Position numbers and translations under genes: made by a program
Shown: positions 24,801-47,500 of the stretch, piece by piece
How the letters are laid out: every line of letters starts with the position of its first letter
Position numbering within the stretch: position 1 is the first letter of the stretch
Notes under the pieces: model-generated
The model's input: the letters and a program-made list of their open reading frames with translations, nothing else
What the model was told of the DNA's origin: nothing
The model's database searches: none
Assembly: GCF_000003815.2 (NCBI RefSeq)
Contig: NC_049992.1
Span: 19,414,609 to 19,478,608 of the forward strand
Origin: Branchiostoma floridae
Taxonomy: Eukaryota; Chordata; Leptocardii; Amphioxiformes; Branchiostomatidae
Reading direction: 5' to 3'
Length of the DNA: 64,000 bases

Positions 24801-27800
24801 ATTTTAGTTTCTATAGTTTTCTTAAACTTCGTGCGAACATGGAATCACACGACAGAGGCAGCTGCAGAAAATTTCTCAGTATGGGGAGGGCGAACTATAT
24901 CAACGTAATCCTTGGGGGTCCGGGGGCATGCTCCCCCGGGAAAATTTGGAAATCTTGACTACTAGTATCTGAAACGGTCTTTCCTAAATTTTGATGGGCA
25001 AAATTTGCTGGCAGATTAAGCTTTAAGTTTAATAGCCTTTCTATTAGAACTTCACATGGTTTTGAGGGCGACGACGCCCCCAACGTATTTCCACGATTTC
25101 GAGCGCTGGGCATGGCACGAGCCGTCGCAAGGTAGGTCTGGAGAAATGTCATTCAAATGATGAAGTTTGGACCCTCTGAGACACGATTTTCTGCATTTTG
25201 AGGGATAAACTTCGCTGGTAGACTATGCTAAATGTAATGACAATTTTCTGTCAGAGGAAGAGATTTTTGATGGCGACGAGTGCCGAAGTGTTGTGTGCGC
25301 CAGAGGCGCAAGCCGTCGCAAGGGACGTCCAGAGAAAAATTGAAATCTTGACCATCTGAAACTTCATTTCCTGCATTTCAGGGGCACATTTTGCTTGTAT
25401 TTATCAAGGCCCCTCAGCCAATTTTTTTTCAATGGCCCCCCCCTCGGCTCAAAAAATTTTTCAATGGCCCCCCCCTCGGCTCAAAAAATTTTTCATTGGC
25501 CCCCCCCACCTATGCACCAGCCCTCCCCCCCCGGTAAATATCGTCAGGTCCCTAGGCCAACAATGCTGTCATTGCTGTGTAATATAATTGAGTTCTTAGC
25601 ACAATGTATTCCTATTAGCAGCCTCTACTGTGTAGTGGCCGGTGCAATGGCCGAGTGGGTAGATTGTTCGCCTTGCATTCGGTAGGTCGTGAGTTTGATC
25701 CCTGGCCAAGTCTTACCAAAGACTTTAAAATGGTACATGCTGCTTCCTCTGCTTAGCACTCAGCATTCGGGAAAGAGTATGGAAGGTGAACACACACCAC
25801 TGCCAGTGGACTAGCCCCCTGCTGTAGTGATTGCACAAAGTTGTGTGGCCCAGGGCTACTGAAACGGAGATGGGCGCCGCCCTATGGGGCATCAGGCGCG
25901 GGAAGGAACTTATCTTTGACCTTTGACTAAGTGTGTAGAGCTGACCTCTGTAGGAGTCATGGCCTCCAGCCTTCTCCTCAGGTCCCTAAACTGGAACATG
26001 TTCTCCTGGTAGAACTCGTACTTGGCCCTCAGCAGCCCCTTCAGCAGCTTCAGCTGGGCAGCTGTGCTGGGCTGGAGCCGCTTCAGGCTGGCCACCTCCA
26101 CCACAAGCCTCGTCAGGTGGTCTGACAGGTCTGCCTGCGCCTTGGCTAACATCTGCATGTTACTTCTGGCCTGGAGAGGAATAAAGGATTATCCATTATT
26201 GCTATGGAGATTTCAACATTCCCTTAACCGAGACAGGGGCGATACCGACTTTCAAGGACCTGTGACCCATCGCTGATCCGACAGGTCTGCCTGTGCCTTG
26301 GCTAACATCTGCATGTTACTTCTGGCCTGGAGAGGAATAAAGGATACATTATTGGAGATTTCAACTTTCCCTCAACCGAGACGGGGGCCGATACCAACTT
26401 TCAAGGACCGTTGACCCATTGCTGATCCGACAGGTCTGCCTGCACTTTGGCTAACATCTGCATGTTACTTCTGGCCTGGAGAGGAATAAAGGATGCATTA
26501 TTGGAGATTTCAACTTTCCCTCAACTGAGACAGGGCTGATACTGACTTCCAAGGACCTTTGACCCATCGCTGCTCTGACAGGTCCACCTGACGTGTGCCT
26601 TGGCTAACACCTGCATGTTACTTCTGGCCTGGAGAGGAATAAAGGATACTTTATTTTGAGAAAATCTTCAACCTTCCTTCAACCAAGACGGGTTGATACT
26701 GACTTTCCTTTGACCCATATTGCTAATTGCTAATGCGGCTAACATCTGCATATCACTTCTGGCCTGGAGAGAAAGAAAGGATATTACCATTTGAGAAAAT
26801 CTCTAACCTGCCCTCAACCGAGACGGGGGCCGATACTGACTTCCAAGCACCTTTGACCCATTGCTTATCTGGCTAACATCTGCATGTTATAGGCTGAAAA
26901 GGAATAAGGGACACATTCTGAGAAAATTAAACATTTAAAAAAAATCTTTGACTGAATCTCCTAGTCTTTTACAGTTAGCTGACCCTAGCGCTGTCAATGT
27001 TGCATTGCTAAAACTGCACTCCTTCAAAAATTTTCCATGCAGACATACTATCTGACAGAAGGAAAAACCCACATACAATGTACATATACAATGTACTACC
27101 ACACAGACAGTAAGCTTTTACAACCAAACTAGTTTGCTCAAAACAAGTTTGTGGATTGTTTAAGTGTGTTTTATTCACTCATACACAATGTATGTCACAG
27201 GCCACAATATCAGACATACATGAAGCACAGTAGACTCATTCTCCACACTAACAACATTTTTTGAACTGTTGAAGAACTTGTAAATAACAATACCTGGTCT
27301 GCGGGGTGACATGCTGAATAAAAGTTCAGCCCCAGATGTCTTACAGAAGAACAACTAAGGTGCAAAAGACGTTGATCAGCTTGAGGAATGAGACCACTCT
27401 ACCTTATACACGTCAGGTATTATCTCACCTGTGGAAGGTATTTAGGACTGCCTGCACTGATCTCCAGACCTTCGATCAGTTCCTGGTACTTGGGTAGCTG
27501 GGAGTCAACCTTGGACTGGGTGGCTGAGATCTTCTCATAGACCTGAGAACAAGACAACACAACAAGACAGTGTTAAACACTATGTACATGAAGTGGGCAA
27601 AATGAACTTATAATGAAACAATAGGACAGTTGGATGTCCTCTATGCACACACTTACTTATGTAACACATTGTGTGTCACACACATGCACACATTCGCTAT
27701 AGCTAATTAGCACTTACTAGTAGGAAGTACTGTTTAATGCTAGAGAACATGTCCTGCAAGTAAAAATTGTACCAGTATATCCTCTATGCCTGACAGGACC

Positions 27801-27851
27801 CCTGTGACCCCCCTACATATGCAGGCACACATGTGCGCACACAAATATACG

Positions 27852-27884
<33 letters not shown>

Positions 27885-28024
27885 ATTCAATATAATTCTT
27901 CTTCAAAAGTACCTGTTAAATGCTAGAGGAAATGTCCTGCAAGTTGTATGATTGTCCTCTATGGCTTACAGGACCCCTGTGACACTTCTACATATGCAGG
28001 CACACATGTACACTCACTCACACA

Positions 28025-28071
<47 letters not shown>

Positions 28072-31000
28072 ATTCACTACAATTCCTCTTCAAAAGTACC
28101 TGTTTAATGCTAGAGAAAATGTCCTGTTGTTCCTCCTCCACCACAGCCTGTGTGACCTCGGCCAGCTGGATGTCCTCTAACTGTGCCTGACAGGACCCAC
28201 ACACACGCTGGTACAGGCACAGGTTGGGCTCCACCTCAGGACAGCCTTTCACCTTGATGATGGCCCAGTGTGGGTCTGGGTGGGACAATACAGAAATGAG
28301 TGGAGATGTCATTCTCATTTCTGTATTTTCCCACCCAGACCCCAGTAAGACTTTACCTGAGTTTCATTCCCCATGGTGAGGTATATGGAGAAAATATGGT
28401 TCTTTTCAGTTAATAGTACTGTTACATGTAGTAAGACTATTATCTCATTCCCCATGGTCAAGTATATGGAGGATAAGGATCTCTCTTTAAAGTAAGTTAC
28501 ACATGTACTGTTACATGCATGATGTAGTATGACTATAGCTGAGTCTCATTCCCCATGGTCAGGTATATGCATGAAGAGGATAAGGTTCTCTACAGTATTA
28601 CATGCACATTCTAATAGGAAAACTATACCTGAGTCCTGTTCCCCATCGTCCGGTACATACAGGATGAGATTCTCAGCTGAACAGGAGGAACAGATGACAC
28701 GCCCACACACACGGCAGTTGTGCTTCTGTGTCAGTAACCCAAACTTCTGCTCACACAGCTAAGAGGAGAAACAAATTTCAAAGAAGGATAAAAAAAATGG
28801 CAGAGCATTACAAAATGTACAATTTCATCACATTCAGGAAGGTGGCATTGTATCAATTAACTTTGATGGTAATACTGTTAGCCTTAAAGATCAAGCTACA
28901 TTTGAGAGATATTCAATTTTTTTCTAAATTTTTCAACTTGTCTAAAGCTTCCTTAACATAGTTTTCAGCAGCTAAAGACTTTTAAAACAAATTATGATTT
29001 GATGATCATTATGTCTGTTATGTGAATATTGTTTTGCGTAATGAACTTTGTGAGATTCAAGGGCCTCCCTGAAAAGCAATGCCTATATGCTACTGATAAA
29101 TGAATTTGAGTAGCCTGACGTGAGAGCCAGCGCATGTAAACAGCCCAGGTAGCAAGGCCTGGTGCACAGTCTTGCCTTTTCCATAAACCATTTCTGCTAG
29201 GAGGAAGAAAGAAAGAAGACAGAACACACCAGCAAAATCATAATAGATATGATTCAGAAAGCCTGCTGACCTGGCAGAAGTCTGTGGCCCCCTTGGGAAG
29301 ATAGAAAGTTCCTTTCTGCCAGTCTGGGAGGGAAAAACTCTTCATGATCTCCAGAGAGGCAGACTTCAGCCATGACGTCCCTCCTGCCGCAAGGAACCCT
29401 TCAGTTAGACGACGGCACTCCTGAGTAAAAACAGTTGTAATTTGAACTTAAGAGAGCTAGACTTCTGTAGCAACAAGAGCACAGGTATTTTGTAAAAGTA
29501 TATGCCACTTCAGTCGTTTTGCATTTTGTTCAGCATAGAAACTTATGGCAGACATACCTGTCTACAACCATTTGGGTAAATCTTTCTTACAGTAACACTA
29601 CAATATTTTCTAAGAAATGATGTTGAAAAGCCATTTCATTTCCAATGGCATCTATATGTACATGTACAGTCCTTACCGGTAACTCGTAAACTTCAAATAA
29701 TGATGAAAAGTCTGGCATTTTTGAATGACATAGCAGATATACATTTGCACTGAGAATTTTGATAATGACAACACTGTATCATCATGTACAATGTACATGT
29801 TTCTACCTTCTGATAGTCCAGTTTCCTGTGCAGCCTGCTGCCAGACTTAGACTTGTACTTGGGGCTGGTCTTCCTGCCCTTCAGTGTGAAGAACAGATCA
29901 GTCAGGTCCTGGGTCTGCCCTATGGTCTGTGGACCCTCGTCAAAACAGGAAGCACACACCTGGGCAAGAAGGAAGGAGCGAGGACACCTTAAGGCTAAGG
30001 AGTGAGGTCACCTTAAGGCTAGAGTGTCTTAAATTCTTGTGTAGGAATCAAAGACAGGTGTAAGAATCAAAGACAGCCTCAGAGGAATATTGGCAAGATT
30101 GTAAATGCAATGTCATTTGGGGTGGGTACCGGTACAAAGCTGTGTTTTTTTTCTTTTTGTATTGTTGGACAGGTAAAAAAAAAAACAGACCTGAAAAAAA
30201 TCAGTAGACTGGATTTTGGACAGAGTAGAAAATGACCGGATTGTATCAGTACAGTCTGGGTTAACCCTTTTTGTGCTTACTGGTTCAAGAAAATTAAAAG
30301 TTTCTACAGTCAAACTTGCAGAGTTTACATAAAAATAGGATTTTAAAAAATTAATGCCAATGGTAGTCACATACTGCACCAAATAGATTCCTTTGTAACA
30401 CATTGGGCAAGTTTTTGTCCAAGTTCATATTTAAACCGGACTCTGATCCTCTGCACCTGAATTGTACATGTACATGTACCTAAATTTTCTGTACCGATAC
30501 CCACCCCTACTGACATATGTATTTATTTGATTAAAGATGTTGATATGGACATCCTAAGCAAAAGAAATACAGAAGTGAGAGACCTACAGCAGAAAGTTGT
30601 TTGCATCTGTGATGAGGAAGACATCTTGGCAGTAGTGTGCAGTCAACTGCATATGGGACAGGGCATGCAGTTTATTAATTGATAGGACGATGATTATCAA
30701 TATACAATTCTGACGATCATGCCGAGAATAGTAAGGCAATATCATGCCAAGAATAGAAAAATGAGACAAGAATCACCTGTACTCTACTTCAGGGCTTTAG
30801 CCAGCTCGAAATTTTTTTCTGTCAGCCAATTACAATCGTCATGAAAACCGCGAAAATTATTAATTAATTAGGAGGACTGAACTGAGACCTTGAAAAACGG
30901 GTTTTAATGAGATTATCGTATGCGAAAGGGCGCCGACACACATTGTCAACAATCATAATAATAGCAAAACAAACAGTGTGTGGCTTTTACGGCCGTGGAC

Positions 31001-33199
31001 AGCGTCCCCAAGCCGCCTGTAGCTTCCACCAAGGATTTTTGTCCGTCAAGGTTGATGGATTGGTTTTAAAATTTTTCTGTCAGACGCAGCAAATTTCCGT
31101 CAATTGACGGAAAAACGGACGCTGGCTAGACCCCTGCTCTACTTTCATCTCTAATCATTTTCATTGAAATACCAATTGCTAGTGAGCAAGAACTACTACT
31201 AGTAAGGTGCTAGGTGGCTAAGGTAAGAGGTACAGAAGAGAACAAGCAAACATATTGATTATTATGTCTCCTACTTGCATCAAGTCCTGAAAGTAGTAAA
31301 AAAACTGCTACTATATTGATATGGAAACTTTATGAAATTTAAACTTTTAAAGAATGAAAACAAAGCTGATATATGACTTGTACAGTATGGACAGGGATAT
31401 TGGGGGCTGTACCTGGTAGCTCCGCCCATTTGGATCGGGCTCAGCTAAGATTGACAGCTTTCTCCTGTACCTGGTACACTTCCAGCAGCACACATGTCCA
31501 CACCTGTAAGATCACAAGGTAGGTATTATGATTGTAGTGAAGACACATGACACTCAAACTGAGAAATACTACTTTGAATTGTGATATATATGTAGAGGAG
31601 ATATATGTAGTGTATGTATGTACATATGTATGTATGTATGTAATGTAAATTTGGGCACACAGGGCTGGAAATACTGGGGTTCTGTGCACCCAAAATTGGA
31701 GCTGTGCACCCACTTATTTTCTGTGGGTGCACAGGGTGCACCCAAATATTTTCATAGGCTTATGCATGTTAAGATGTCAGTATACTAAGTAAGCACCATA
31801 TTCTTGACATCTATGTGTTAGAAAGATAATAAAATGACTATCATAGTTAAGTACCGATTTCTGAAGAGCTCCGTTCAAATTACTAATTTATTAGGCTTGC
31901 AATTAAGTTATTCTGATATTCTACTTTATTTCATGTGGTGCACCCAAAAATATTTTGGTGCACCCAAATTTCTAGATTGGGTGTACCAGTGCACCTATTC
32001 CCAAAAATGAATTTCGAGCCCTGGCACATGTGTGTGTGTGTGTGTGCACGTAAGTCTTCATCTGTTTCCCACCTGTAGCAATGGTGTTTTCTGTCTGTCA
32101 AGCCAAACTTTTTCCGACAGTTGCTGCAGTTTGTGACTTCTCCACTAGGTGTCCAGTGGCTCTTCTTGATGTAGGGAAAATCCTGCGCGTCGATTGGTCG
32201 GTTGTTCTGGTGGTCACTGACGAGCGTTCCGATATTCTGCTGGACCTCCGACCACTCACTGGAGATGATCATGCTGGGGGTCCTAATGGGGGGATTCTAG
32301 AGACAAATGGTAAAACATAAATAAGTGTTTTCAAGGATCCAACTGCTCATGCACATGTCAAGGGTGAAGGCCACACGTGTGAACATAAAATTTAAAACCA
32401 CCGCGAACATTTTTCTATCATGGTATGAGACTGCAGTCTATGGTGTTACCGCGAAATTAAAACCACTGCGAAAAGTCCTTTTCCCCGCTACCGCGAAATT
32501 AAATCCCCACGAACTTAAATGCATTTACAGTATCTTGTCCCTACCATTCTACATAATCAGATAAATGGCCTCAGTCGATTGGTTTGTGTAACAATGTCCT
32601 GATGTGTTTCGTTTACGTTTTCGGGGCCTTCACTGTTGACACGTGCATGCACATTTAGATCTATGAAAGTGCTTATTACATCAGCTGAACATGAGAACAA
32701 CAAGAACAGAAAGCAAAAAACCTTCACATTTTCATCTCCAATACCAAGCTTGCGAATTGCAAACACTGAACCTGGACTTTGTCACAAAAGTCAAAGATAC
32801 TTTTGTAGTCACATAACGTTACATGTATTCATAGACACACCGATGTAGCAAGGTTTTAAATTTGGCTTGAAATCTGTCATTTGATATATCTTTATAATAT
32901 CACTAAATGCGGAGTGGTACACATTCAGCCGTTATGGGTGTGCCTGGGTGAAAGTAACACATAGCTCCTTCAGTCCTTGCCAAAACGTAAACAACATTTC
33001 TTTCAACCTTAGGAAAACAAGGCCGGCATGCAAGTCTTCGCGACAGCTGTGGCAATCAGTTCATTAAAAAAAATATCATTGATTCTTTATCTATTTAATG
33101 TCATCAAGAACTACTCGTAATACTTTAGACAGAAGAAGAACAGAAGTGTGAATTCCTCACTTTGGAGTAGGGACTGACTGGAACAGTAGTGGCTGCCAT
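21819..33199 (-). CDS. Double FYVE-type zinc finger protein, 601 aa, 12 exons
   Basis: Exons in transcript order: 33199-33161, 32296-32073, 31503-31413, 29959-29807, 29420-29271, 28758-28629, 28275-28100, 27542-27429, 26170-25946, 23417-23321, 22606-22485, 22103-21819. All junctions are GT/AG, phases agree, and the total is 1806 nt. Start context is CAAGATGGC. FYVE 1 spans about residues 60-125: C70/C73, the basic patch RKHHCYRCG with C86/C89, C94/C97, then C120/C123. FYVE 2 spans about residues 216-292: C218/C221, KHNCRVCG with C234/C237, C242/C245, then C288/C291. Both depart from the canonical RRHHCR and WxxD motifs, so phosphatidylinositol-3-phosphate binding is likely but unproven. Residues about 300-510 are helical and heptad-like (AQADLSDHLTRLVVEVASLK), suggesting a coiled coil. 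FYVE proteins act on early endosomes; two fingers plus coiled coil recall Vac1/Pep7, DFCP1 or rabenosyn, but I cannot name an orthologue. It shares a short intergenic region with SZRD1. Confidence 0.88.
23759..25552. mobile_element. TA-flanked 1.8-kb non-autonomous transposon
   Basis: Inverted termini GGGGACCTGACG / CGTCAGGTCCC, with a G-run then AGGGCTGGTGCA on the inner side, flanked by TA. Just inside both ends are direct repeats of a unit with AAAAAATTTTTCAATGG plus a C-run (23815-23905 and 25418-25505). The middle (24290-25400) carries the same tandem GACCCTCTGAAAC units as 4020-4670. Confidence 0.6.
25635..25912 (+). repeat. tRNA-derived SINE
   Basis: The head resembles a tRNA: box A TGGCCGAGTGG at 25648-25658 and box B-like GAGTTTGATCC at 25691-25701. 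A conserved body follows (GTGAACACACACCACTGCC, GTGGCCCAGGGCTACTGAAA). A diverged copy lies at 38690-38960. Confidence 0.75.
26125..26900 (-). repeat. Tandem array of exon 9 acceptor of the FYVE gene
   Basis: The true 3' splice site at 26171 and about 45 bp of exon 9 are repeated with flanking intron at offsets of 156, 149, 153 and 135 bp (TCTGGCCTGG at 26165, 26321, 26470, 26623, 26758), plus a decayed sixth unit near 26890. Each early copy retains a usable CTCCAG acceptor. Confidence 0.85.
27720..28110 (-). repeat. Duplicated exon 7 donor edge with (CA)n tracts
   Basis: The exon 7 end (AATGCTAGAGAAAATGTCC in plus orientation) recurs at about 27737 and 27919, each followed by a degenerate exon piece and a (CA)n or (AC)n run (27845-27880, 28025-28065). 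Unit about 182 bp. Confidence 0.75.
28360..28650 (-). repeat. Duplicated exon 6 donor edge
   Basis: ATTCCCCATGGT, the exon 6 end, recurs at 28366, 28447 and 28548 before the true exon edge at about 28638. Spacing 81-101 bp. Some copies keep a GT at the donor position. Confidence 0.75.
30118..30510. mobile_element. Relative of the TAGGGCTGGGTA element
   Basis: Ends GGGGTGGGTACCGGTAC and GTACCGATACCCACCCC match the 39002-39427 family. Target duplication not clear. Confidence 0.5.
30790..31136. mobile_element. hAT MITE with perfect 8-bp target duplication
   Basis: Starts CAGGGCTTTAGCCAG and ends CTGGCTAGACCCCTG. CTCTACTT flanks both sides (30782-30789 and 31137-31144). TCCGTCAATTGACGGA lies subterminally. 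It sits in intron 3 of the FYVE gene. Confidence 0.9.
31670..32024. mobile_element. CAGGG-terminus (hAT-like) element, GTGCACCCA subfamily
   Basis: Ends CAGGGCTGGAAATAC and ATTTCGAGCCCTG. Contains about ten GTGCACCCA words in both orientations. It lies between exons 2 and 3 of the FYVE gene. Confidence 0.6.
32390..32535 (-). repeat. MITE fragment (TACTGTAAATGC family)
   Basis: On the minus strand it reads TACTGTAAATGCATTTAAG then GGGGATTTAATTTCGCGG. The second copy in the window is at 45113-45185 in opposite orientation. Confidence 0.6.
32536..33160. other. FYVE gene intron 1, no feature seen
   Basis: No exon, RNA or transposon terminus recognised. Confidence 0.5.
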
Positions 33200-33441
33200 C
33201 TTGTTTCGGGATCAAAATTAGTCGCACCCATCGTAAAACAGGGGTGATAAAAAAAAGTCTTCTTCCAACTTAAGTTGATACCTATTTCTGCTTTCTTAAA
33301 CTGTACATAACTCTAAACTATATGCATTATTTGATTGTCTTTACCATTTTACAACTGAAAAGTCAGGTACAAGAGAAAGAATAAAAATCCAACCTTTGGT
33401 GTTAGTAGTAGTGGTTTCGTCCGTCAGTGAAGAAGAAGAAT
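33200..33441. promoter_or_regulatory. Putative bidirectional promoter of SZRD1 and the FYVE gene
   Basis: Only 242 bp separate the divergent start codons at 33199 (minus) and 33442 (plus). Both starts sit in YY1-like contexts (CAAGATGGC on minus, ATGGCGGC on plus), typical of TATA-less housekeeping promoters. No TATA box or transposon is apparent. Both 5' UTRs must be short and may overlap. Confidence 0.65.
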
Positions 33442-35525
33442 ATGGCGGCAGGCAACGACGATGTATTTGACAGCTGGGAAGATTTAGCCGATAGCGGGGT
33501 AAGAAAGACATCACTGTCTAAATTATATCACTCTTGGCGTAGCCAACATATGGAAGTCTTAGCTGGGAAAGTTATGAGTCGTTTCAGTAAATAGAGTAAA
33601 AGTTATAGTAATCGGCGTAAGGGTGGATTTCGTGAGTACGCACAACGTGTGCCCCCCTCCCACCCACAGATTCCATTCAACAGACGTGTGTTACATATGA
33701 TATGTATACTATTATTTGTTTGGGCGTGTAGCCATGTTTGGATGTCAGTGGAACCATGGATATGTTAGACTTATTTGTGGGTCCAAAACAAAACAATCCG
33801 AATTTCCCCATGCCATGCCATTGAATTTGATGTAATTTATTGCAAGAAATTGTTGAGGAAATTGTAATGTTTTGCTGTTACTGTTTGCTGTAGCACTTTC
33901 CATCAACGTGTTATATGTGCACATGAGGTTTCATTTACTTATTGCAGTATCAGAAAGCGAGTAGATTGTGAACTGATTACATAACATATGCTAGAGAAAA
34001 TATCTATGCCAGAGAAAAATAATATAAATGGACGCTGTTCTATTTTTACAGATTTATGCAAACTTATAAGACTGCATATACAACGCTGTAATGATATAAC
34101 AAGTCACTCAATGCTCATATTGTTTTCAGGAGTTAGAACGTCGCTTAGAGAAAGACATGAAGACTAAAGAAATAAAGATCAGCAAGTGAGTAAACTGTTG
34201 TGTACCATTTGGCTGATTTTCTAACAATAGTGTTAAACCATATTCTTGTACTTAATAGATATTATGCATAATTCAAAAGTCATTTGTGCAGCTGCAAGCA
34301 ATTATTTCGCACAGTGTGGACAGTGTGCAAATACATTGTACTAGTCGCAAATTGGAAGTAGCAAACAATTCAAAATCGAGTTGTACATGTGTAATACATC
34401 AAACCATTTTCCATCCATTTGGTGTACTACTACTATAGTGTCTTATTACCCCGGTCTAACCTTTATCAAAATACATGTAACTGGAAATCCACCTGATTCT
34501 TTGTATTGTTTGTCCCACTTAACAGTTTGTGATTTGCATTTAGCTTCTAATTATTTGTCACTGACGAAAGACACTGGATGGCTATCTGAAACATTTGACC
34601 GTTTCCTAAATTATATCCAGCTGCTTGAGTAACTGCTTTTTGGCATATCTTATTACATGGCTGTCTAACCTTCATCAGTGTTTAACTTCCAACAGTTCAC
34701 TAAGGAACGTTCATTTTCCCTGTAACAGAAAGAACAACAATAGAAGCCCAGCAGCGCCCATAGTTCTTGAAGAGGACACACAACGCACACAGTACCAGCC
34801 TCAGCTGAAGATCCTGAAACGACCAACCCACTCCCCCGACACATCATCCCCCAACAGTACAGACGGTAAGCCCAAGGCGAAGCACAAAACCCTGGCCCAG
34901 AGGGAGGCAGAATACGCGGAGGCTCGGCTGAGAATACTGGGAGCTACGTCAGCAGAGGAGACCCAGGAAGAGAGGTAACATTATCTTGTATGAAATTTTA
35001 TATACATCGTGAAGGTATCATGGTACCAATAAGAGTGCCAGATTATCTGTCCCAGGGTTGGACAAGTCCACTAGCCCTATTGTCCTGGGCAAGTGAAAAT
35101 GCCGATCGGGCAAGTGCATGNNNNNNNNNNNNNNNNNNNNNNNNNNNNNNNNNNNNNNNNNNNNNNNNNNNNNNNNNNNNNNNNNNNNNNNNNNNNNNNN
35201 NNNNNNNNNNNNNNNNNNNNGCATAGACTAAAAAACGTACCTGGCAGAGAACAGAGGGAGAAATAGAAAACAGTAACGTATATAATTCCATGCTATTACC
35301 AAAACTATTGTGTACAGTCATGTTATCATTACTAGTATCTCTTATTGTTTACTGTACTCCTATGACTCATACTATAAGTTATAGATTATATCTCTCTCTC
35401 CTGTACTCCCCAGGCCTGCCCATCTAGTGCAGCAGCTGGAGGAACTGAAAGTGGAAGATGGAGTGAACGTTGTACGCCAGCCTCGAGGGCCGGACGGCAG
35501 CGCAGGGTTCCAGCTCCAGAGATAG
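33442..35525 (+). CDS. SZRD1: SUZ RNA-binding domain-containing protein 1 (SZRD1), 156 aa, 4 exons
   Basis: Exons: 33442-33498, 34130-34185, 34729-34974, 35414-35525; GT/AG junctions, continuous phase, 471 nt. The product matches vertebrate SZRD1 (about 152 aa) along its whole length. The acidic N-terminus reads DSWEDLADSGELERRLEK. The SUZ motif lies around residues 46-75 (PIVLEED ... QLKILKRP), then SSPNST, the strongly conserved AQREAEYAEARLRILG at 95-109, and the C-terminal SUZ-C-like stretch VVRQPRGPDGSAGF. SUZ domains bind RNA in other proteins; the cellular role of SZRD1 is poorly defined, with growth suppression reported in human cells. The start codon lies in a GC-rich, YY1-like ATGGCGGC context opposite the FYVE gene. 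Intron 3 contains a 100-bp gap and a truncated transposon. The 3' UTR holds a long inverted repeat (35557-35820). Confidence 0.95.
33499..34129. other. SZRD1 intron 1, no feature seen
   Basis: AT-rich; no exon or repeat signature recognised. Confidence 0.5.
35045..35225 (+). mobile_element. Truncated CAGGG-terminus element interrupted by a gap
   Basis: Begins CAGGGTTGGACAAGTCC with repeated GGGCAAGTG words, then the 100-bp gap at 35121-35220 hides the rest. Confidence 0.45.
35121..35220. other. Assembly gap, 100 N
   Basis: Run of N in SZRD1 intron 3. Confidence 1.
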
Positions 35526-35556
35526 TGTAGGACCGCAGCTCACCAGGACACCATCC

Positions 35557-35820
35557 TCCTACGCAGGGACATCCAAAAGCCAAACTGCCTGGATGTGCCC
35601 TGCTCTTTCAACCATCACTCTTAGTTCCTGACCGCCCTGCTTATAAATATTAATGAGGTTACCCTTATACATGCAAGACAGCTTTTGAAAACGGAAAGCC
35701 TATTGTCTGATTGGCTGACAGCTGGTTTGGGGGGGACGTCCACAGGAACTAAGAGTGACGGTTGAAAGAGTGGGATACATCCAGACAGGCAGTTTGGCTG
35801 TTGGATGTCCCTACATAGGT
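35557..35820. repeat. Inverted repeat in SZRD1 3' UTR
   Basis: Arms of about 75-80 bp (35557-35630 and 35742-35820) begin just 32 bp after the stop codon. They pair through GGGACATCCAAAAGCC, AAACTGCCT, CTTTCAACC and CTCTTAGTTCCTG. The transcript could form a long hairpin. Confidence 0.8.
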
Positions 35821-35825
35821 GGATG

Positions 35826-36705
35826 CCAGAACATATGCCCTTTACACTCATAAGGCCACACTAGTACTAAGACATCACAATAAAGAAACACAGAAGAACT
35901 GCGCTTTGAAAGAAAGAGATCTCGGTATATGCAAATCTCCAGATTCCCTACCCCCCCCCCCTCTTTATATCCCTAACCCAGCTCAAAGAGCTACTAGAAT
36001 CAATACTATAAAGCAGACACACAGCAAAAAAAGAAGACTCATGTATTTTGAGCTGTTCAGGGATAAGAATGAAAGGTTTTCCTGTCGCAGATGACTTGTA
36101 TTTTTGAAACGAACTCCAAACTACCTAAACCTTTCTACATTGAAGGTACAGAGATATGCTAAGTAGTTAGCTACCTAAGCAGCTGGATATGATTTTGGAA
36201 ACATATTCCAAAATCATATCGAGTTGCTTGAGTGACTCCTATTTGGCATACCTTAACCTTACCCTCTAATGCACATCAATGCTGATGAGCTGTTCTATAT
36301 ATAACTAAATTTACATGTTGATGGATGTCAAGGTATGATGTCTTACCTTACGGTTGACTCAAACTTCTATGCTTTGAACTGTGTGTCAAACAAATGTTAA
36401 CTAGAAGAAGAAAAAAAATTTATCTTTACAATGTTTGACTTCCATGCTCTACTTCTCAAATGCTACATCTACAATGTACTCGGGACAACGGTAATATCAA
36501 TTTCAGGGTTTGGGCTACATGTAGTTATAACTTCCAGAGGTCTATAGATAGCCCATCTTGGCCTACAAGGCCCTTCAGAGTTATGTGTCTGCAGACATTA
36601 CAGGGTGTAGGAAAAGAGCTCGTATTTTTGGTTGATGATTAATTTTGTTTCCTAAGCTAGGACATTCAACTGTATACTTAGAAACTCAGAGTAGTTCTTG
36701 CCTCA
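35826..36705. other. Probable SZRD1 3' UTR or intergenic sequence
   Basis: Contains a fragment of the AGTAGTTACTCAAG repeat family near 36175-36250 and no coding signal. Confidence 0.45.
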
Positions 36706-36710
36706 CTTAC

Positions 36711-36829
36711 TAGCCTGGGTACCATCCTATTTCTACCGGGGCTCCTTACACTCACTTCCTTAAAAAAAAATATTTTTAGGGGTAGCGAGTGTAAGGAGTC
36801 CCGGTAGAATACGAATGGTACTCAGGCTA
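36711..36829. repeat. Short foldback MITE
   Basis: TAGCCTGGGTACCAT and mirror ATGGTACTCAGGCTA, with CTCCTTACACTC arms inside. Similar TAGCCTGG termini are at 12190. Confidence 0.65.
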
Positions 36830-37314
36830 CTCACTTACTTCATGCATCCGCATTATATCACAGGAAAGTTATAGTTTGAATCTCCGTTATCTTATTATTA
36901 ATAGGACTGCTTACTGATATCTCAGTATGTATAGTTTTATCAATGTTACAAGAGAAAGTGGAAAAGAAAAACGAAGGAAAGAACAAGTATTTACGTTGTA
37001 GTTTTATTTGAACCGAAACTTTCTGGACTTCCGAGATAGTGGCTTTGTGTTAACGTCTTAACACTGCAATTGGTAAACCTTTACAAAACAGCCACATGTG
37101 GATAAATTGTGGAAGCCTAGCCAAGATTTTGTGCAACATAATTGCAGAGCGTTTCTTACACATATGTACATGTATCTTGCAGAGTATTGAAGAGATGTAA
37201 GTAATAGTATAGAGTAAGATTGTTGAAAATGTTGAGATAATTGTGAAAAGGATACGCTTTGTATGGTAGGGTTTATTTTCTTGCTCGTGCTACCACTGTG
37301 CAATTGTATTTGTA

Positions 37315-37320
37315 AATAAA
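37315..37320 (+). terminator. Candidate poly(A) signal AATAAA for SZRD1
   Basis: TGTAAATAAAG with T-rich sequence just downstream; would give a 3' UTR of about 1.8 kb. A nearer AATAAAG is at about 35879. Confidence 0.35.
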
Positions 37321-37520
37321 GATAAAGAAAAAATGTGCTTTTTTTTTCAGCACAAAGGTTGTACATGCTTCTTCACTTCTGGTGTGACGTGATCTGGGTA
37401 TCTTCTAATGCTAAGGCTAATGATTCAGTGGCTATTTCGTACAGTACAGTAAGAAATACAGTATATATACTACAATACAGTACCTTATCAGCTAACCTAT
37501 TTTAATGAAATGACCTATAA

Positions 37521-38231
37521 GGCCACACCAATTTAATTTCTTGGTTCACCGATTTTTTCATAAAAAATATGAAGCGAGAGGGTGAAATAAAAATAAAAAT
37601 TGTAAAATGGTTGGGGTTAAGGTAACGGCTAATCCAAAACATAAAGAATAAAAAGTTTTCAAGTGCAAAAAGTACAAAAACACTATTACTGTACAGTAAC
37701 AGCACCTGTACCCACACTTTAAGGAGCTTATAATATAAAGGCCAATTTGCTATACCAGAAAGTTGGTGAATGGTTTCATTAAAGGCAACCTAAGCCATAT
37801 CACATTGTTAAAAGTGGAAATATTCTGAATAAGGCAGTCTGTATAATATTGACATCTAATGCACTATTTTAGCACATTTACATCATTATTTCATAAATTG
37901 AGCCGTGAAAAACAGCGCGGGAATGAGTTGCACAATGATTCCAGATCAAGTCCTTATTTTTGGGGGGTACAATAATAAGTAATATCCTCGTGCAACTTGT
38001 CTCTGGGCTGTTTTTAACCGCTCAAAGTATGAGATGATGATGTAAATGTGAGAATACAGTGTAGTAGATGTCAATATCATGCAGATTGCCTTATTCAGAA
38101 TATTTCCACTTTGATGCTGTAATATTGCTTAGGTTGCCTTTAATGGTGAAAATTTGCTGAGTGGTAATTTTTTTTTTCCAAAAAATAGGAGCCAGTGAAT
38201 CCGTGAACCAAGAAATTAAATTGGTGTGGCC
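37521..38231. mobile_element. PIF/Harbinger-like MITE carrying a nested insertion
   Basis: Termini GGCCACACCAATTTAATTTC and mirror, flanked by TAA (37518-37520, 38232-38234). Same family as 9580-10017. It is split by the TTAA element at 37783-38139. Confidence 0.75.
37783..38139. mobile_element. TTAA-flanked foldback MITE (AGGCAACCTAAGC)
   Basis: Termini AGGCAACCTAAGC / GCTTAGGTTGCCT with TTAA at 37779-37782 and 38140-38143. The sister MITE at 9580 has a single TTAA at this spot (about 9920), an empty site. Confidence 0.85.
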
Positions 38232-38466
38232 TAATGTAAAACATAGGTAAAAAGTTGCAGTAGTTTGGAGTCCAGAGAAAAGGGCACTTTAACACACTCT
38301 ACAGTGAAAGATGGCATTTTCATCACAGACCAGTGACCTAAAAGACTGGTCAGGACTTTTGCTGCCCCAACAATTGGCTTGCTAGGAAACTGATGATAAA
38401 AGTACATTTTACACAGACCACTCTGTACATAGGCCTATAAAGATGTGAAGTAGATTGTGTTGAAGA

Positions 38467-38472
38467 TTTATT
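38467..38472 (-). terminator. Candidate poly(A) signal AATAAA for UTP3
   Basis: Minus-strand AATAAA 31 nt after the UTP3 stop codon. Confidence 0.5.
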
Positions 38473-38502
38473 TTCAAGAGACAAGACTGATTATGTATCT
38501 GC

Positions 38503-41500
38503 TCAAGTAATAAGTCGGGTGCTCTTCTTCACTCCAGCCTTGATGCCGGAAAACTCGCCATCGTAACGTTTAAGCTCTGTCCGGGGTTCACGCACCTGTG
38601 TACAACCAAAAACAAAGGAATTAAGCCACAATAGTTTCCATAAGAATAACCCAAAATTATACTCAGGTATATTAGGTGTATTTGTACCATGAAATTGGCA
38701 AGTCAGTAGAGTTCTCGCCTTGTATTTTAATTGGTAGGTTTGTAGTTCAATCCCTGGCGTAGTTATACATAAGGCTTCAAAAATGGTACATACTGCAAAA
38801 TGCAAATCACTCAGCAATTTGGGAGAGAGTATATAATGAAAGTTGAACACACACCACTACGTGTGGACTAGCTCTCTGCTGTAGTGATTGAGTGGCCCAA
38901 GGGCTATTGAAATGGAGATAGGAACCACACTATGCACCTTCAGGTGTCAGAAGGACTTACACTACATATTAGATATTAGGACTTAATATAAAGGCTTGCA
39001 CTAGGGCTGGGTATCGGTACAGCGTACCGGTATAAAACCGTTTTTTCTTATTGGACCGGTCCAGAAGAACCGGACCTGAGAAAATTAGGTGGACCAGATG
39101 TTGGACCGATTAGAAAATTAACAGATTATCTTATCAGGCATTCACACGTTTGGCGCTTGCAGATGGAAGAAAATAACAAGAGTGAAGTAGAGTAGAGTTT
39201 ATAGTCATTTCTACCACGTTTTACAGCCAATCGTACAGGTGCAGTTAGCTTTGTAGGATTTTAAAACGCCAGTGTAAGTCTAATACTCCACCAAACAGAT
39301 TTCTTTGTAGTAAAATGGTTCATTGGTATGACTCATACTGAATCAGGTTCAGGTCTGGACCTGGACCTGATCCTTTGGACCTGAACCGGACATGGACCTG
39401 AATTCTCTGTACCGGTACCCAGCCCTAGCTTGCACCATCTGAGAGTAGTAGTCAGGGCTCGAAATACCACATGCATATGCAAGTTTGTGCATGTAAGATT
39501 AGTGTGGTGCAAGTAAGTTTAGACCAAACTTGCACCAGTGCAAGTTAATTTTGTCCTCTAATACCTGACATTAGAAAAAGCTTACAAACACCAAGAATAT
39601 TATCTGTCATTGAAAGGTAAAAGAAAATAACACTTGATAAAAAAGCCTAAGTTTGTCCATGGAGGTTAGACATCCAGGTAAACAATATTTCAAGACAATT
39701 CCATCTCTACAATGCTTAAGATCCCTTTGGTGTTGTCTTACCTTGATTTGCATTTAAGTCACATTTGCATACAAGTTAGTGACTTTGATATGTTCAACTG
39801 GTTTTTCCAGTTATATGTACTTGTAATGAGTTGTTCTACCACTTCATTCCAGCGATTAGTGATGGATGTCAATCGCGAGGCATGCAGAAGAAATCTATGG
39901 ATCTTATCGAGTTGTAGACATTGGATTGATCTTTAATTAAGCCTAAATTCACCTTTTTTGAAACTGTACAATCTAAAACTAAAAAAAATATGCTATGGAA
40001 AAACAAATACTTAAAAGTATCCAAACATGTGGTCTTTATGTATCCCCATTTACTCACATCCATTTGCAAATTTTCAGAATAGGAGATAAAGAGTTAACAG
40101 TTCACTGTTTTGGGTTGTGCAAGTAAGTTTCTTTTGGTGCAAGTTACCTTTTGCTCAACTTGCACTGGTGCAAGTTAACTGAAAAGTGTATTTCGAGCCT
40201 TGAGTAGTAAAACTTTATAATACATGACTGTATGGGCAAAAGTTTGACTGCATTTATCATATACCTCTCAAGCTTTTTTAACCAATAATTTTCTTGTCTT
40301 ACTGTATGAACCATTCTATCAGTAGATGGATAGGAAATAAGGTTTGCATGAATGACACAAGAAGAAGTGCCTGACAGCCCATACCTGGCCCTTCCTCCGG
40401 ATCTTAGCCTTACGAAACTTCTTCCTCAGCTTCACACGAGGGTTTCTCTCCTCCTTCTTCCTTTTGGGAGTCAGGCCCTTGTTCTTAGATATCTGGAAGA
40501 GTAAAGAAAGAAAAAAAGATTGAACACTATACTACTAACAAGTCACTTCTTCCTCTTGGGAGTCAGGCCCTTGTTCTTAGATATCTGGAAGAGTAAAGAA
40601 AGAAAAAAAGATTGAACACTATACTACTAACAAGTCACTTCTTCCTCTTGGGAGTCAGGCCCTTGTTCTTAGATATCTGGAAGAGTAAAGAAGGAAAAAA
40701 AGATTGAACACTTTACTACTAACAAGTCACTTCTTCCTCTTGGGAGTCAGGCCCTTGTTCTTAGATATCTGCAAGAGTAAAGAAGGAAAAAAAGATTGAA
40801 CACTTTACTACTAACAAGTGAAGTCACTGCTTCCTCACTTGTACTAAAGTTGCTATACAAAGATTTCATCTCATACACCAAAGGTATTTAAGCTTGCTCG
40901 CCATTGTTTAAAGCCCTCAAGTGTAAAAGACTTTAATGGGAAATTCATGGATCTAAGTAGCTTCTACATAATAGAAGCCTACCTGTATGATTCAATAAGG
41001 AGGTGAGAGAGACAAGTCTTAGCTCAAGGATTTTTTTTGTCTGAAAAATTGCTCCCAATTGTTCAAAGTCTTGGGATATTGTATACTAGTGAGTAGTGAC
41101 AACCAGCCTTAAAGATACAACCTCCAACACAGATACCAGTAGTACATGTATGTTCCTGACGCAGCCACCCTACCTCATAAGTGATGGCTCTTTTCCCATC
41201 CTCCTCTTCCACCTCCATCTGGTCCTCGGTTGGCTTATCTTCTGCCACTGTGTCTTCTTCCTCTTCTCCAGGGCTGTAAAATAAGGAATTGTGTAAAGGA
41301 TTTGTATTAATGTGAAGAACAACGTTTAAAAATCAATATCAATATGCTGTTATAATTTTTTCCTTTCAACTTCATTTCAGGCACTCTTCCCATATCATAG
41401 TGACGAAAACAAAATAATGTAAAAACATACAATTTACAGGAATACAGTATATGTACAGTAAAATGTTGAGTAGAGTTAGCCAGGGTGTTTGAAGATAAGG

Positions 41501-44500
41501 TTGATGTATGTATGAAACAGATCCATGCTACATAGACTGAAACACAGCTACATCTTTAATTTTACAATTATATTATGACTGATACAAACAAGAATAGCAT
41601 GTTGAAGTTGAAACTCTGCAAGAAAGAATTTGAAAATTACACAAATTTACTCATTTGGTATATCTGTCACTGCACACACACAAGGCACTTTGGAGTTTCC
41701 TGACTAACCTTTCGTCCTCTTCTTGCTGGGCTTTTCTTCTCTTGGCCTTCAGCTGTTCATAGAACTCAATAGCTTCCTTCTCTGCTGCTGTCAGGTGCTC
41801 TTTCTTTCTCTGGTGGGAAACAGAAAACATTATCAAGTCACCTGCAAACTTCCTATAGCTACTGAGTTAGACTACATTGCCATAGTATTAGTACACTATG
41901 TTGCTTCTAACAGTAACTGGGTAATTCAATCAAAAGTTCAATGTGTCAAGTAAACTACGTGTAGAATAATTCAGGATCTTGTAAAGCAAGTTTACCACTT
42001 TTGTAAGCGAGTAGTAAGATGTGACTCTAAAAGTGGCATCTCACTGCACTTGGGGCACCAGTTTGGCACTGCAGGGTTCGAAACATGACTCAACAGATTG
42101 CAGAGATAAAGAACAAATTTTCTTACATTTTGTGTATTTTGTTGTCCTGTAAGTCATACTTTTACATATTAGGCATATCTAGATTTTTTTTTTAAATTGG
42201 AAAAAATAACACAACAGTGCAGCAGTGAACAAACCCCGCAGTGCCGCACCGGTGCCCCAAGTCCAGTGAGATACCACCTTTAATTGGTACAAATGTTTAT
42301 GTAACTAATTTTAATATAATCGGAAACAGAATTTGAAATCTATGTCTATATCTTGTGTTGTCACTCTCCTAAGTTTACAAGAGGACTACTTGTCTAAGAA
42401 GACCAGATTACAACAATCCCTCCGTGGTTGTCTTAGACAAGTTTGACTGTACCTTCTTCAGTTTTGCACTCTTGAGAGTCTGTTGTGTCTGTGAAGTCTC
42501 CTCTTGTGCCACACCGTCCGTGTTCGTCTGAGTGTCTGCAGGTTTCTGTTTCTCCTTCTGTTTCCTCCTGGCTTTCTGCACCCCCCCAGGCTGCGCCTCT
42601 CCTGCCCCCACCCCCCCAGGGGGTGCTTCCCCTGCCCCCTCCTCGCTGGGCTGTAGAAGGAAGGACACCTCTGGCTCCAGTTTTTGGTCTAGCGGCTCCA
42701 ACTCATTGATCAACTGAAGTGTCAAGAAACAAGACTGTTACATAGAGACCAACACGAGGGTCAAGAAACAAAATTGTTAGATAGGTAGATAGATAGTTCA
42801 TACTTGTACTTTGTGTGTTATTGCCATCCCCATGGCAAGCCCTTTGTAATAGCCATTAGATAGTTAGATAAACCTGCCTGTAAGTCTCTCACATCCAAAA
42901 CAGTATATAAACAAAATTGGTAGTCATACGGACCACATACATGTGCATGTACCTAGCATACAAACATTTCAAGACATTTTTTGGGATTTTTCAAAAATTA
43001 GGAAATGTGCATTCATTGGGTTTTAGTGAATACAAATTCAAAGAGGTTGGTTGGCAATTTGTATTTTGGTTACTCTGTTTATCAAATTTGTTGAGTTATT
43101 GAGAACTTGCTGATGACTGACATTTCTATACTGCACCAGTCTGTTGATGACCGGATGACTGCGCACGTTGGGGGTGTGGCCTGCCTTCAGCACCAGGTAG
43201 AAGGAAATGTTCACACAGTAACTGGAAAATAAGTCATGACAGAGAAGGATTGAAACACCAACACAAAACCAATAATTGTATACAGCCTCAGTCAAACTAT
43301 GTACTACACACATGTGCATAAGGCAATGTTATACGAGGTTGAAAAGGACTACTTTTGAAATCATTGGTCCTTTTCCTGGTAACCGTATCTGATAATATCT
43401 TGATAATATGTCAGTTACTCTGTAGTAACAAATCATTAGTGCTTAAAATCACAATACATATGATATAACATAAATCATAGGAGTAAAGACAAACTGACAG
43501 TTGCCTTACTTGAGGTAGAGTTGAAACTTTGTCTCCACATAAGTTGCTCCCTGGAACAACAATGGTAGGTAAACTGTTAAAAATGCTATCTTCCATCAAT
43601 GATTTTAGCTAAAGCACTACTAGTAGGTATCTGGTAAGTTAGAAGATCTGTGATGATGTAAAGAAGAAAATTACTTTCCTTTGACTTAGCTTGTCACTTG
43701 GTAATATATAAGATGTTGGATTATCTTATAAAAAAAAACATGTTAAATCTTTTTTACATGCACATTCATGGCCCAGATTTTTAAGATAAATAAAATATTA
43801 CAGCAATGCCCAATAGTTATCATACCTTTCCAGGAGGTATGATTCCAGACCGAACCATTTTCAGCAGGGGGTGGAGTCTGTCAATCACCTCTTGTAGCTG
43901 TGTGGGTAAAAATGACAAAACGTAAAGTTACTATTGAAGTCAAAACACTGCTTACCCTATCTAATGAAGGATAAATGTATCTATTGCACACAAAATTGCA
44001 CATTTCAGTTTACTTTGTTCAACTATACGTCACACGTCACAGAGTTTTGGCCAACCCAAATAAAAATTACAAGAAAAAAATGATGATAATCCCTACCTAC
44101 CAACCCCATTTTTTGGGGACTGAAACAGGCAACACATTTTTTCCCCCATGCCTTATCGATTTCTTACCTTTTCCTTGAAGTCGTCCATGAGTTCCTGAAG
44201 CTCCGGTGCCTCCTTCTTGAGTAGCTCCATACGCTGCCTGTGAGACAGCTGACTCAGGTCCTGTAAGACTCTCTCTTCTGCCTCCTCCACTGGTAGGGCA
44301 GCATCTTCTGTAGGCTTCTTAGCTGGCTGGAGATATAAATCATTACAGAAGTAAACATCATGTGAGACAGCTGACTCAGGTCCTGTAAGACTCTCTCTTC
44401 TGCCTCCTCCTCTGGTAGGGCAGCATCTTCTGTGGGTTTCTTAGCTGGCTGGAGGGAGAAATCATTACAGAAGTAAACATCATGTGAGACAGCTGACTCA

Positions 44501-47500
44501 GATCCTGTAAGACTCTCTCTTCTGCCTCCTCCTCTGGTAGGGCAGCATCTTCTGTAGGCTTCTTAGCTGGCTGGAGATATAAATCATTACAGAAGTAAAC
44601 ATCATGTGAGACAGCTGACTCAGGTCCTGTAAGACTCTCTCTTCTGCCTCCTCCTCTGGTAGGGCAGCATCTTCTGTGGGTTTCTTAGCTGGCTGGAGGG
44701 AGAAATCATTACAGAAGTAAACATCATGTGAGACAGCTGACTCAGATCCTGTAAGACTCTCTCTTCTGCCTCCTCCTCTGGTAGGGCAGCATCTTCTGTG
44801 GGTTTCTTAGCTGGCTGGAGGTATAAATCATTACAGAAGTAAACATCATGTGAGACAGCTGACTCAGATCCTGTAAGACTCTCTCTTCTGCCTCCTCCTC
44901 TGGTAGGGCAGCATCTTCTGTGGGTTTCTTAGCTGGCTGGAGATATAAATCATTACAGAAGTAAACATCATGTGAGACAGCTGACTCAGATCCTGTAAGA
45001 CTCTCTCTTCTGCCTCCTCCTCTGGTAGGGCAGCATCTTCTGTGGGTTTCTTAGCTGGCTGGAGGTATAAATGACGGCATAAGAAAAAATCAATGCCATG
45101 TAAAAGGAGATACTGTAAATGCATTTAAGTTCGCGGGGATTTAATTTTGCGGTTCCGGAAAAAGGACTTTTCGCAGTGGTAACCTGCACCATGTTATGCA
45201 CTGTGTATTTATAAAGTGGATTTTTCTTTGCTATACTGGTTGTTATGCCACAAGCAAGAGATGCGATAAAGATGGCCAATGAACAGCTTCCAGTGTGATT
45301 TTTGTTTATAAAATCTGTGAATACTAGTACCGCACCATAAGTGGTGTAAAAAAAAATCGAATCAGACACTCATGGGTTTGACCATATATTCCATCTTTTG
45401 AGACTTGTCCTTGTAACTTATTCCTACAGGACTGGTGTAAATGTTGTTCAAAAGGTTGTTTTATCCATGGCCACTTTTGGGGTATATTCAAATGGTGCAG
45501 GTAACATTTCTTTGGTGCAGGTAATTTCAAAAGTTATCTGCACCTGTGAAGGTAGACTAGACAGAATAAAAGTATTTTGAGTCTAACTTGACCTGGCTAC
45601 ATTCAAACAAGTAGTGATGTGTTTATTGGTCAGAAAAAGTGAGAATATACATGCAGCTACTTCAGGGGTAGAGTGACCCTGAATTTTGGAGTGACCCAGA
45701 ATCCAGTTGTTATTGTATTTCCATTATTCTTAACAAATATTTTAACACCTTTATCTTTCTTGCATATGAGAAACATTTTTACAAACTAAGTCATTTTGTT
45801 TCAGTTTTGTGGAGATTCCTTTTCATTTTAGCAACAGACTGGTAAGTACCTTGAAGAGGTCTAGCCCAAAGTCCTCCTCGCTGAGTGCCTCAGTCATACG
45901 TTTCTGAATGGCCAGAGCTTCTCTCTCCTCCTCCTTCTGAGCTTCCTCTTCCTCCTCATCCCCTACTACTCCTGAGGACACAACAGAACACATTGTATAC
46001 CACATTCCATGTCAGGGAAATACAAAAATTGAGAAGAATCCTATATTAAAGGAAAGCATCAGAAAATCTTCAATTCATTATTTTCCAGTAGCTTACTCAT
46101 TAAAAAGTTGATTTACGTCAATTTTTACATTAATCCGCCCAATATGACCCTGTAGACACGTTTGAACTTCGCGCTCTCCTCCCCTCTCCCGCCGCGCTGG
46201 CCGATGACGTAATGGCCTCGTTCTGATTGCCTGCGCGCTGACGTCACAAATCAGAATTGAAACTTCTGGCCCTTCTGGCCATGCCAGCCGTTTTGCTCGG
46301 TGAACCTCGGTCCCTTCGGCGGGAAATCACACCGCCATTCTGGAAGCCAGTCCGTTGTTGTTGACAATTAACTTCGTGGACCTGTAAGTCGCGTTGTGAG
46401 CTGTCTACGAAGCCATAGTCCCCGGGAGACTGAACATGAATGGGCTTGTCTGCGAGTGAACCGCGCGACGGTACGAATCAAAACAATGGTGGTGGGGGAG
46501 GTTCGATATGTAGCGATCAAGGGTATGTTGTCAGAGGAAAAATGTCACGGATACTCTTGTTTTTTTTTACTGTCACTGCCAGTTGGACAACTATGAATTC
46601 AGCCAAAATTCGGGAAGCTTACGTGTAATCATCGCTAGCTTCCGAAAGATNNNNNNNNNNNNNNNNNNNNNNNNNNNNNNNNNNNNNNNNNNNNNNNNNN
46701 NNNNNNNNNNNNNNNNNNNNNNNNNNNNNNNNNNNNNNNNNNNNNNNNNNAGCTTACGTGTATCATCGCTGAGCTGTCCGGAAAGGAGAAGGTAAGAATT
46801 GACTCGAACTCGCTCCTGTAACAGTCCAGAATGGCACGGTGCATGAACCTCCCCCACCACCATTGTTTTGATTCGTACCGTCGCGCGGTTCACTCGCAGA
46901 CAAGCCCATTCATGTTCAGTCTCCCGGGGACTATGGCTTCGTAGACAGCTCACAACGCGACTTACAGGTCCACTTAGTTACTTGTCAACAACAACGGACT
47001 GGCTTCCAGAATGGCGGTGTGATTTCCCGCCGAAGGGACCGAGGTTCACCGAGCAAAACGGCTGGCATGGCCAGAAGTTTCAATTCTGATTTGTGACGTC
47101 AGCGCGCAGGCTATCAGAACGAGGCCATTACGTCATCGGCCAGCGCGGCGGGAGAGGGGAGGAGAGCGCGAAGTTCAAACGTGTCTACAGGGTCATATTG
47201 GGCGGATTAAAGTAAAAATTGACGTAAATCAACTTTTTAATGAGTAAACTACTGGAAAATAATGAATTGAAGATTTTCTGATGCTTTCCTTTAATATTGT
47301 AGAGACAAAAATTTATACGTGTGTACTTTTGTGTTGGAAGAAATGTTAGCATTGTACTAATAACAGAACATGCTTTTGGTTGAGCATTGACACATTTGAC
47401 CACTGAGTATGTTTCACTTGTTTATATGTACATTGTAAAGTAAATTCCCTCACTTTAGATATACACTGTATAAGTAGCACTGAAAAATGTATATTCCACC

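Follow-up and report, generated by a model that had tools for sequence, protein, structure and literature searches.

Mirage minisatellites are tandem arrays whose units copy an exon edge together with intron and exon sequence; in amphioxus, they have been described at Adh3, the globin genes BflGb6 and BflGb9, troponin C, and PGBD5. The Adh3 mirage is that of Canestro et al. (2002, Nucleic Acids Res), as cited in PMC3087553 and PMC3902484. Excerpts of PMC3087553 describe globin mirages at both acceptor and donor edges, with units of 150 to 160 bp in BflGb6 and of 157 bp in BflGb9. BflGb9 contains "a duplicate of the 3' boundary of exon 2," and a figure legend in the same excerpts states that 5' and 3' boundaries can both be duplicated. 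Those excerpts also report that repeat numbers differ between two haplotypes, propose an intron-gain model, and cite Adh3 and two papers on other loci. In the excerpted part of PMC3902484, repeats of 60 and 108 bp abut 5' splice sites of PGBD5, and the globin, Adh, and troponin C cases are cited. Copy-number variation between alleles or somatic cells has been reported for Adh3 and BflGb6, again in excerpted text. To the extent of these excerpts, both papers treat mirages gene by gene, and we found no genome-wide count in the literature searched, which leaves out most subscription journals. Here we analyze a 64,000-nucleotide stretch of the Branchiostoma floridae genome (contig NC_049992.1, positions 19,414,609 to 19,478,608; the window), in which five exon edges of a double-FYVE zinc-finger gene and of UTP3 lie inside local repeat arrays. 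We conclude that the arrays are new cases of the known mirages and are probably side products that a genome with abundant local duplication tolerates. Our work adds further gene cases, from the window and from sampled loci, and a first small estimate of their frequency.

Tandem Repeats Finder (TRF), short probes, and alignment place all five edges inside local repeat arrays, at the positions that an earlier sequence-only reading had given. Three of the five are acceptor-edge arrays, and the other two are donor-edge arrays. The FYVE gene carries the acceptor array at 26171 and the donor arrays at 28099 and 28628, and UTP3 carries the acceptor arrays at 40493 and 44327 (table below). The units of the 44327 array are partly set out as 244-bp dimers. 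The unit of the 28099 array includes a CA repeat, and this array has one clear decoy, as we call the intronic copies of the splice site, and a weaker second one. The 28628 array is decayed. It is absent from the TRF list, and a 40-bp probe at 70% identity finds no copy at this edge. However, 30 bp across the edge match at 80%, and alignment gives the coding copy and three further copies at a spacing of about 90 bp. Chance resemblance is excluded, because 30-bp matches of at least 80% to reversed sequence make up only 0 to 0.0002 of windows in the five loci tested. By alignment, identity to the coding copy is 95 to 99% in the 92-bp array and 90 to 98% in the 122-bp array; it falls from 93 to 72% among the decoys at 26171 and from 74 to 58% among those at 28629. 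Because the decoy identities differ from array to array, the arrays seem to date from different times. In several arrays, the units far from the exon are the most diverged. We make no claim of polarity, because a comparison restricted to intron sequence traces part of this gradient to truncation of the end unit.

The acceptor arrays hold four (26171), three (40493), and six (44327) decoys, all of them intronic and upstream of the true site, which lies closest to the exon body. AG is intact in every one of these 13 decoys. In the donor arrays, only two of five decoys keep a scorable GT, and the proposal that the repeat always includes the splice site is therefore correct for the acceptors and not for the donors. 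Some acceptor decoys even outscore the true site in a simple matrix, as at 44449 (5.4 versus 2.0). Use of any scorable decoy would bring an in-frame stop into the message (15 of 15, comprising 13 acceptors and 2 donors), so only the terminal copy can serve. That the coding copy is always terminal is true as proposed, but it follows from geometry, because after a duplication across an edge a single copy stays attached to the exon body.

Between positions 27717 and 27940, the decoy units of the 28099 donor array have TTGCAG, which resembles an acceptor, immediately ahead of the duplicated piece of exon, and the coding copy lacks it. Each decoy of this array could therefore resemble a tiny exon. 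The gene finder called 27718-27753, in this array, as an exon. Decoys can thus be mistaken for exons in annotation, as the gene finder did in UTP3, in the FYVE gene, and in a CCT gene.

These arrays resemble the published mirages in structure. As in the excerpted accounts, tandem copies of an acceptor or donor edge contain intron and exon parts, splicing would use the copy that is attached to the exon, AG or GT is often preserved in the decoys, and units diverge. The unit spans the exon-intron boundary at the five window edges and at five edges outside the window. One copy is exonic and the rest are intronic, as judged by the Pfam-backed UTP3 and FYVE gene models and by the stops that follow every scored decoy, and many units, though not all, keep the AG or GT. 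What differs is the hosts, which are new: the double-FYVE gene, UTP3, a CCT gene, and a legumain-like gene. Thus, the suggestion that the window extends mirage minisatellites to new genes and to donor edges stands as far as the match to mirages and the two further window genes are concerned. The donor edges are not a novelty, because donor mirages are already in print for BflGb9 and PGBD5. Intron gain by tandem duplication, as excerpted for Cryptococcus CNN00420 (PMC2395259) and for the globin model (PMC3087553), likewise involves splice sites duplicated within a gene and possible new introns or exons. Here, in contrast, use of a scored decoy would break the frame, and the decoys are known from DNA. 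Ordinary minisatellites of the same genome resemble the mirages in unit length and in the spread of copy number, but they hold no known exon edge and hence no known coding copy.

Table. Exon-edge arrays and copies, and the main genes of the window. Positions of L-numbered loci are local to each locus.
Feature	Position	Strand	Details
Acceptor-edge array, last FYVE-gene exon	26124..26896	-	Units of ~149-156 bp; coding junction 26171; decoys 26327, 26476, 26629, 26764; TRF 26124-26692 (149 bp)
Donor-edge array, exon 28100-28275	27717..28138	-	Units of 175-187 bp; decoys 27913, ~27739; TRF 27780-28126 (187 bp)
Decayed donor-edge array, exon 28629-28758	28335..28674	-	Copies near 28539, 28446, 28358; GT lost in 2/3
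Acceptor-edge array, UTP3	40454..40820	-	92 bp x 4.0 (TRF 40454-40819); coding junction 40493; decoys 40585, 40677, 40769
Acceptor-edge array, UTP3	44239..45072	-	122 bp x 6.8 (TRF); coding junction 44327; six decoys
L034, CCT chaperonin gene, C11			68-bp acceptor array at 3174; donor copy at 6770
L018, legumain-like exon series			Donor copy at 8515; Peptidase_C13 E 1e-4 on first exon, just below Pfam cut-off
L013, predicted exon	8289-8451		Separate copies of both edges; gene without Pfam support
Double-FYVE zinc-finger gene	25916..33199	-	9 coding exons found; exon peptides and splice flanks
SZRD1	33443..35525	+	4 exons; SUZ 4.5e-16, SUZ-C 5.9e-10 (Pfam)
UTP3/SAS10 gene	38509..49386	-	14 coding exons used; PF09368 2.2e-28 (Sas10 C-terminal domain), PF04000 1.2e-15

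How often an edge should be caught in a repeat depends on the repeat load, which we measured with 40-bp probes at 80% identity or more and a shift of 25 to 1500, with simple sequence removed. The sample comprised twenty random and four flanking 10-kb loci with 230,364 non-N bases. Local non-simple repeats take up 4.85% of these bases and 3.6% of the window. Locus L021 alone holds 38% of the repeat bases in the 24 loci, and by arithmetic the share is 3.1% without it. In 14 of the 24 loci, we kept a total of 32 clusters, made up of close copies with units from 40 to 400 bp. Of the positions of L021, 43% are in local repeats (1285-8549), and this locus has a long open frame of degenerate protein repeats.

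We then counted how many splice edges of 22 genes or gene pieces are crossed by repeats and compared this with the counts after rotating the repeats along these genes. Repeats cross 10 of the 220 edges, the rotation mean is 10.08, and 1130 of 2000 rotations give 10 or more. The window genes have 5 of 49 edges crossed (5.32 expected), and outside the window 5 of 171 are crossed (4.63 expected; reached in 1029 of 2000 rotations). The CCT genes alone show 2 of 110, compared with 2.84. Repeats cover 7.8% of intron interiors (3573 of 45871 positions) and 2.3% of exon interiors (294 of 13030). Counts on predicted exons gave 4 of 92 edges crossed in the 24 loci, where intron offsets give 2 to 8%, and 6 of 42 in the window, compared with 7 to 14% at intron offsets there; two of those six are decoy copies that were predicted as exons. 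The arrays had been read as the product of a process rather than of chance; at the scale of our sample, this comparison of edges with tandem-repeat density, the test that the earlier reading had itself named, shows no excess and speaks against a special process. In the genes sampled, edge mirages are no commoner than the short-repeat load of the genome predicts.

The gene set consisted of three window genes (other window genes were unused), six CCT genes, and 13 gene pieces. The CCT genes were taken from nine places with three or more matches. The pieces, 13 of the 23 predicted chains outside the window, came from nine random loci among the 24 of 10 kb. The ten doubtful chains that we excluded include the repeat-protein chain of L021 and the plus-strand chain of L013, which are the source of three of the four crossings among the 92 predicted edges. 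We dropped 16 weak exons from the chains used (four in L014, eight on the minus strand and one on the plus strand of L018, two in L019, and one in L024) and, among the CCT genes, a further five from L034 and two from L031. Pfam searches with sampled exons gave matches for 10 of 20, two of those below the cut-off. Pfam gave no support for the pieces of L013, L014, and L019 or for one piece of L022, and two of the three crossings in the sample-gene group come from L013. One UTP3 donor was placed one base off (flank CA) in the 220-edge count; there is no repeat there, and the count is unaffected.

The five edges with copies outside the window lie in L034, L018, and L013, stretches that were selected independently of repeats. 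Four of the five are two-copy cases and not arrays. The host in L018 is an exon series that we take to be legumain-like. The two-copy cases (L034 6750-6920, L018 8474-8663, and L013 8118-8705) have a shared block of 37 to 82 bp at a distance of 134 to 196 bp, and the spacer was unlike in seven of eight flank comparisons. Six other pairs were put through the same test, and a like flank was present in four of them and absent from two. The two-copy edge cases thus look more like local copy-and-insert events than like clean tandem duplications, to judge from these flanks. A globin family search of the genome returned 12 globin matches and no tandem partial ones. The counts in CCT genes (2 of 110) and in the other sampled genes (3 of 61) suggest that roughly 2 to 5% of edges carry a mirage. 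If this share held genome-wide, there would be thousands of mirages.

We put the probability at about two in three that these mirages come from local copying at a high rate, with edges hit without targeting and decoys tolerated. In this scenario, short segments of about 40 to 250 bp would be copied locally, and some copies would grow into tandem arrays, probably by unequal exchange following the local copying. About 3 to 5% of the sampled sequence is in such local repeats. When a segment straddles an exon edge, exactly one copy would keep the exon body and the reading frame. The remaining copies would land in the intron as decoy sites and would presumably be spliced out. Exon definition may favor the copy that can pair with the true site close by at the exon's opposite end, and rare mis-splicing may be removed as faulty mRNA. 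Decoys would be tolerated because use of a scored decoy adds an in-frame stop and because of exon definition. Duplications that are wholly exonic would be purged, as the depletion of repeats in exon interiors indicates, so arrays would be seen in introns and at edges. Mirages in such numbers genome-wide would be natural experiments on how the spliceosome picks one of as many as seven nearly identical acceptors, and they would be a standing source for intron gain by duplication.

Several points weigh against untargeted copying, and most of them would favor an alternative that we regard as unlikely, namely that exon edges are preferred sites of local duplication, for example because stalled transcription, R-loops, or the base composition of splice sites leads to breaks and slippage. 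The rotation test itself leans toward chance, since an edge anywhere in a many-copy array counts as crossed. An edge counts only if the original segment held it, and intron cover rises with copy number; a null based on coverage only is therefore inadequate, and we also counted arrays against random seeding. Randomly seeded, tolerated segments in the host genes have an 18 to 28% chance of including one edge, and all five arrays of the two window genes cross one (chance product, 5e-4). Random placement would have 0.5 to 1.6 of the 12 arrays in the window crossing a predicted edge; the observed count is 3 to 6, which 0 to 15 of 400 placements reach. The window was, however, chosen for its edge arrays. 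Outside it, five of the eight arrays in curated genes cross an edge, with a per-array chance of 0.30 to 0.40 and a tail of 0.06 to 0.17, which is suggestive but short of significance. This tally was made by hand. The crossing arrays are two in L034, two in L013, and one in L018, and the others are L034 5949-6420, L019 2704-3108, and L019 4242-4439. Matches of less than 85% identity do not enter the tally, nor do units shorter than 40 or longer than 400 bp or the L034 fragments at 2372-2747, which clustering joins to the 68-bp array; counting the 508-bp pair of L033 would make it five of nine. Both edges of one L013 exon are copied separately, and one CCT gene has two copied edges, which also fits a preference. 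The sample genes alone have 3 of 61 edges crossed, compared with 1.76 by rotation (reached by 507 of 2000). A further weakness concerns the fate of the decoys, because splicing to the terminal copy is predicted from DNA.

Against a preference stand the rotation result over all 220 edges and the random and flanking loci, which show no significant excess: 2 to 5 of 32 arrays cross a predicted edge in the 24 loci, where random placement gives 1.2 to 2.9 and 61 to 203 of 400 placements reach the observed value. In the CCT loci, one of three arrays does so, compared with 0.3 to 0.6, and this count missed the 68-bp CCT acceptor array owing to the weakness of its true acceptor. In addition, selection on the exon side of the coding copy may keep edge copies recognizable for longer. 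Targeting of edges is thus not needed to explain how often they are hit. A modest preference is possible; arithmetic with placements at 141 bp points to a possible excess of two- to threefold, which is beyond what the sample can settle. If edges were preferred, each mirage would be a natural contest of near-identical splice sites, and mirages would be a steady raw material for intron and exon gain. We doubt a little more strongly that edges are preferred starting points of duplication such that mirages number in the thousands. It is very improbable that the decoys are functional and have been retained because they serve as alternative splice sites (acceptors or donors) or regulate splicing. 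The intact AG of every acceptor decoy and scores near or above that of the true site would fit such a role, but every scored decoy leads to a stop, the youngest arrays are too recent for loss of AG, and the decayed donor array has lost GT in most of its decoys. Assembly errors, for instance a head-to-tail joining of two haplotypes, are if anything less credible still. The assembly does have N gaps, and the BflGb6 mirage was misassembled in an earlier genome draft according to the excerpts of PMC3087553. However, the units differ from one another (72 to 93% identity to the coding copy at 26171), copy numbers reach seven, and published mirages are, in the same excerpts, also backed by sequence traces and reverse transcription-PCR.

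We also considered a mobile-element origin for the 44327 array of UTP3, and it was not supported. A genome search with positions 43800-45200 gave 42 DNA matches, and none of the 41 non-self matches covers the array. With 40 of 2285 candidates scored, the only full-length match was the searched stretch's own place, and no second place or second allele of the array unit was found among them; rarer copies could be missed, and uniqueness is unproven. The neighboring intron beside the array holds a dispersed element of about 230 to 270 bp at about 43928-44168, with at least 41 matches elsewhere in the genome.

Of the genes in the window, the FYVE gene matches PF01363 in two stretches (Pfam; E value, 2.6e-26), and FYVE chains were matched in the PDB. 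The FYVE gene and UTP3 had been described as adjacent. They are not, because SZRD1, on the plus strand, sits between them; no local duplications were found in SZRD1. The likely start exon of UTP3, at 50985-51004, is a prediction only. In a UTP3 intron at about 46050-47300, a long inverted repeat was seen by eye, with about 46050-46505 reversed at about 46850-47300 around an N gap. It is probably a foldback transposon or a gap artifact. Elsewhere in the window, TRF found arrays of a 20-bp unit at 6279-6450 and 17486-17565, with CCACACATCGTGTGG and its reverse on opposite strands. Their flanks look alike by eye, and the two arrays are probably ends of the same mobile element. Repeats of 33 bp occur in the window at 55832-55925 and 62379-62558, in L006 at 6301-6476, and in L008 at 8470-8706. 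The consensus units of the two window repeats are one base apart (TRF), and those of L006 and L008 share the period. These are possibly coding repeats in a local gene family.

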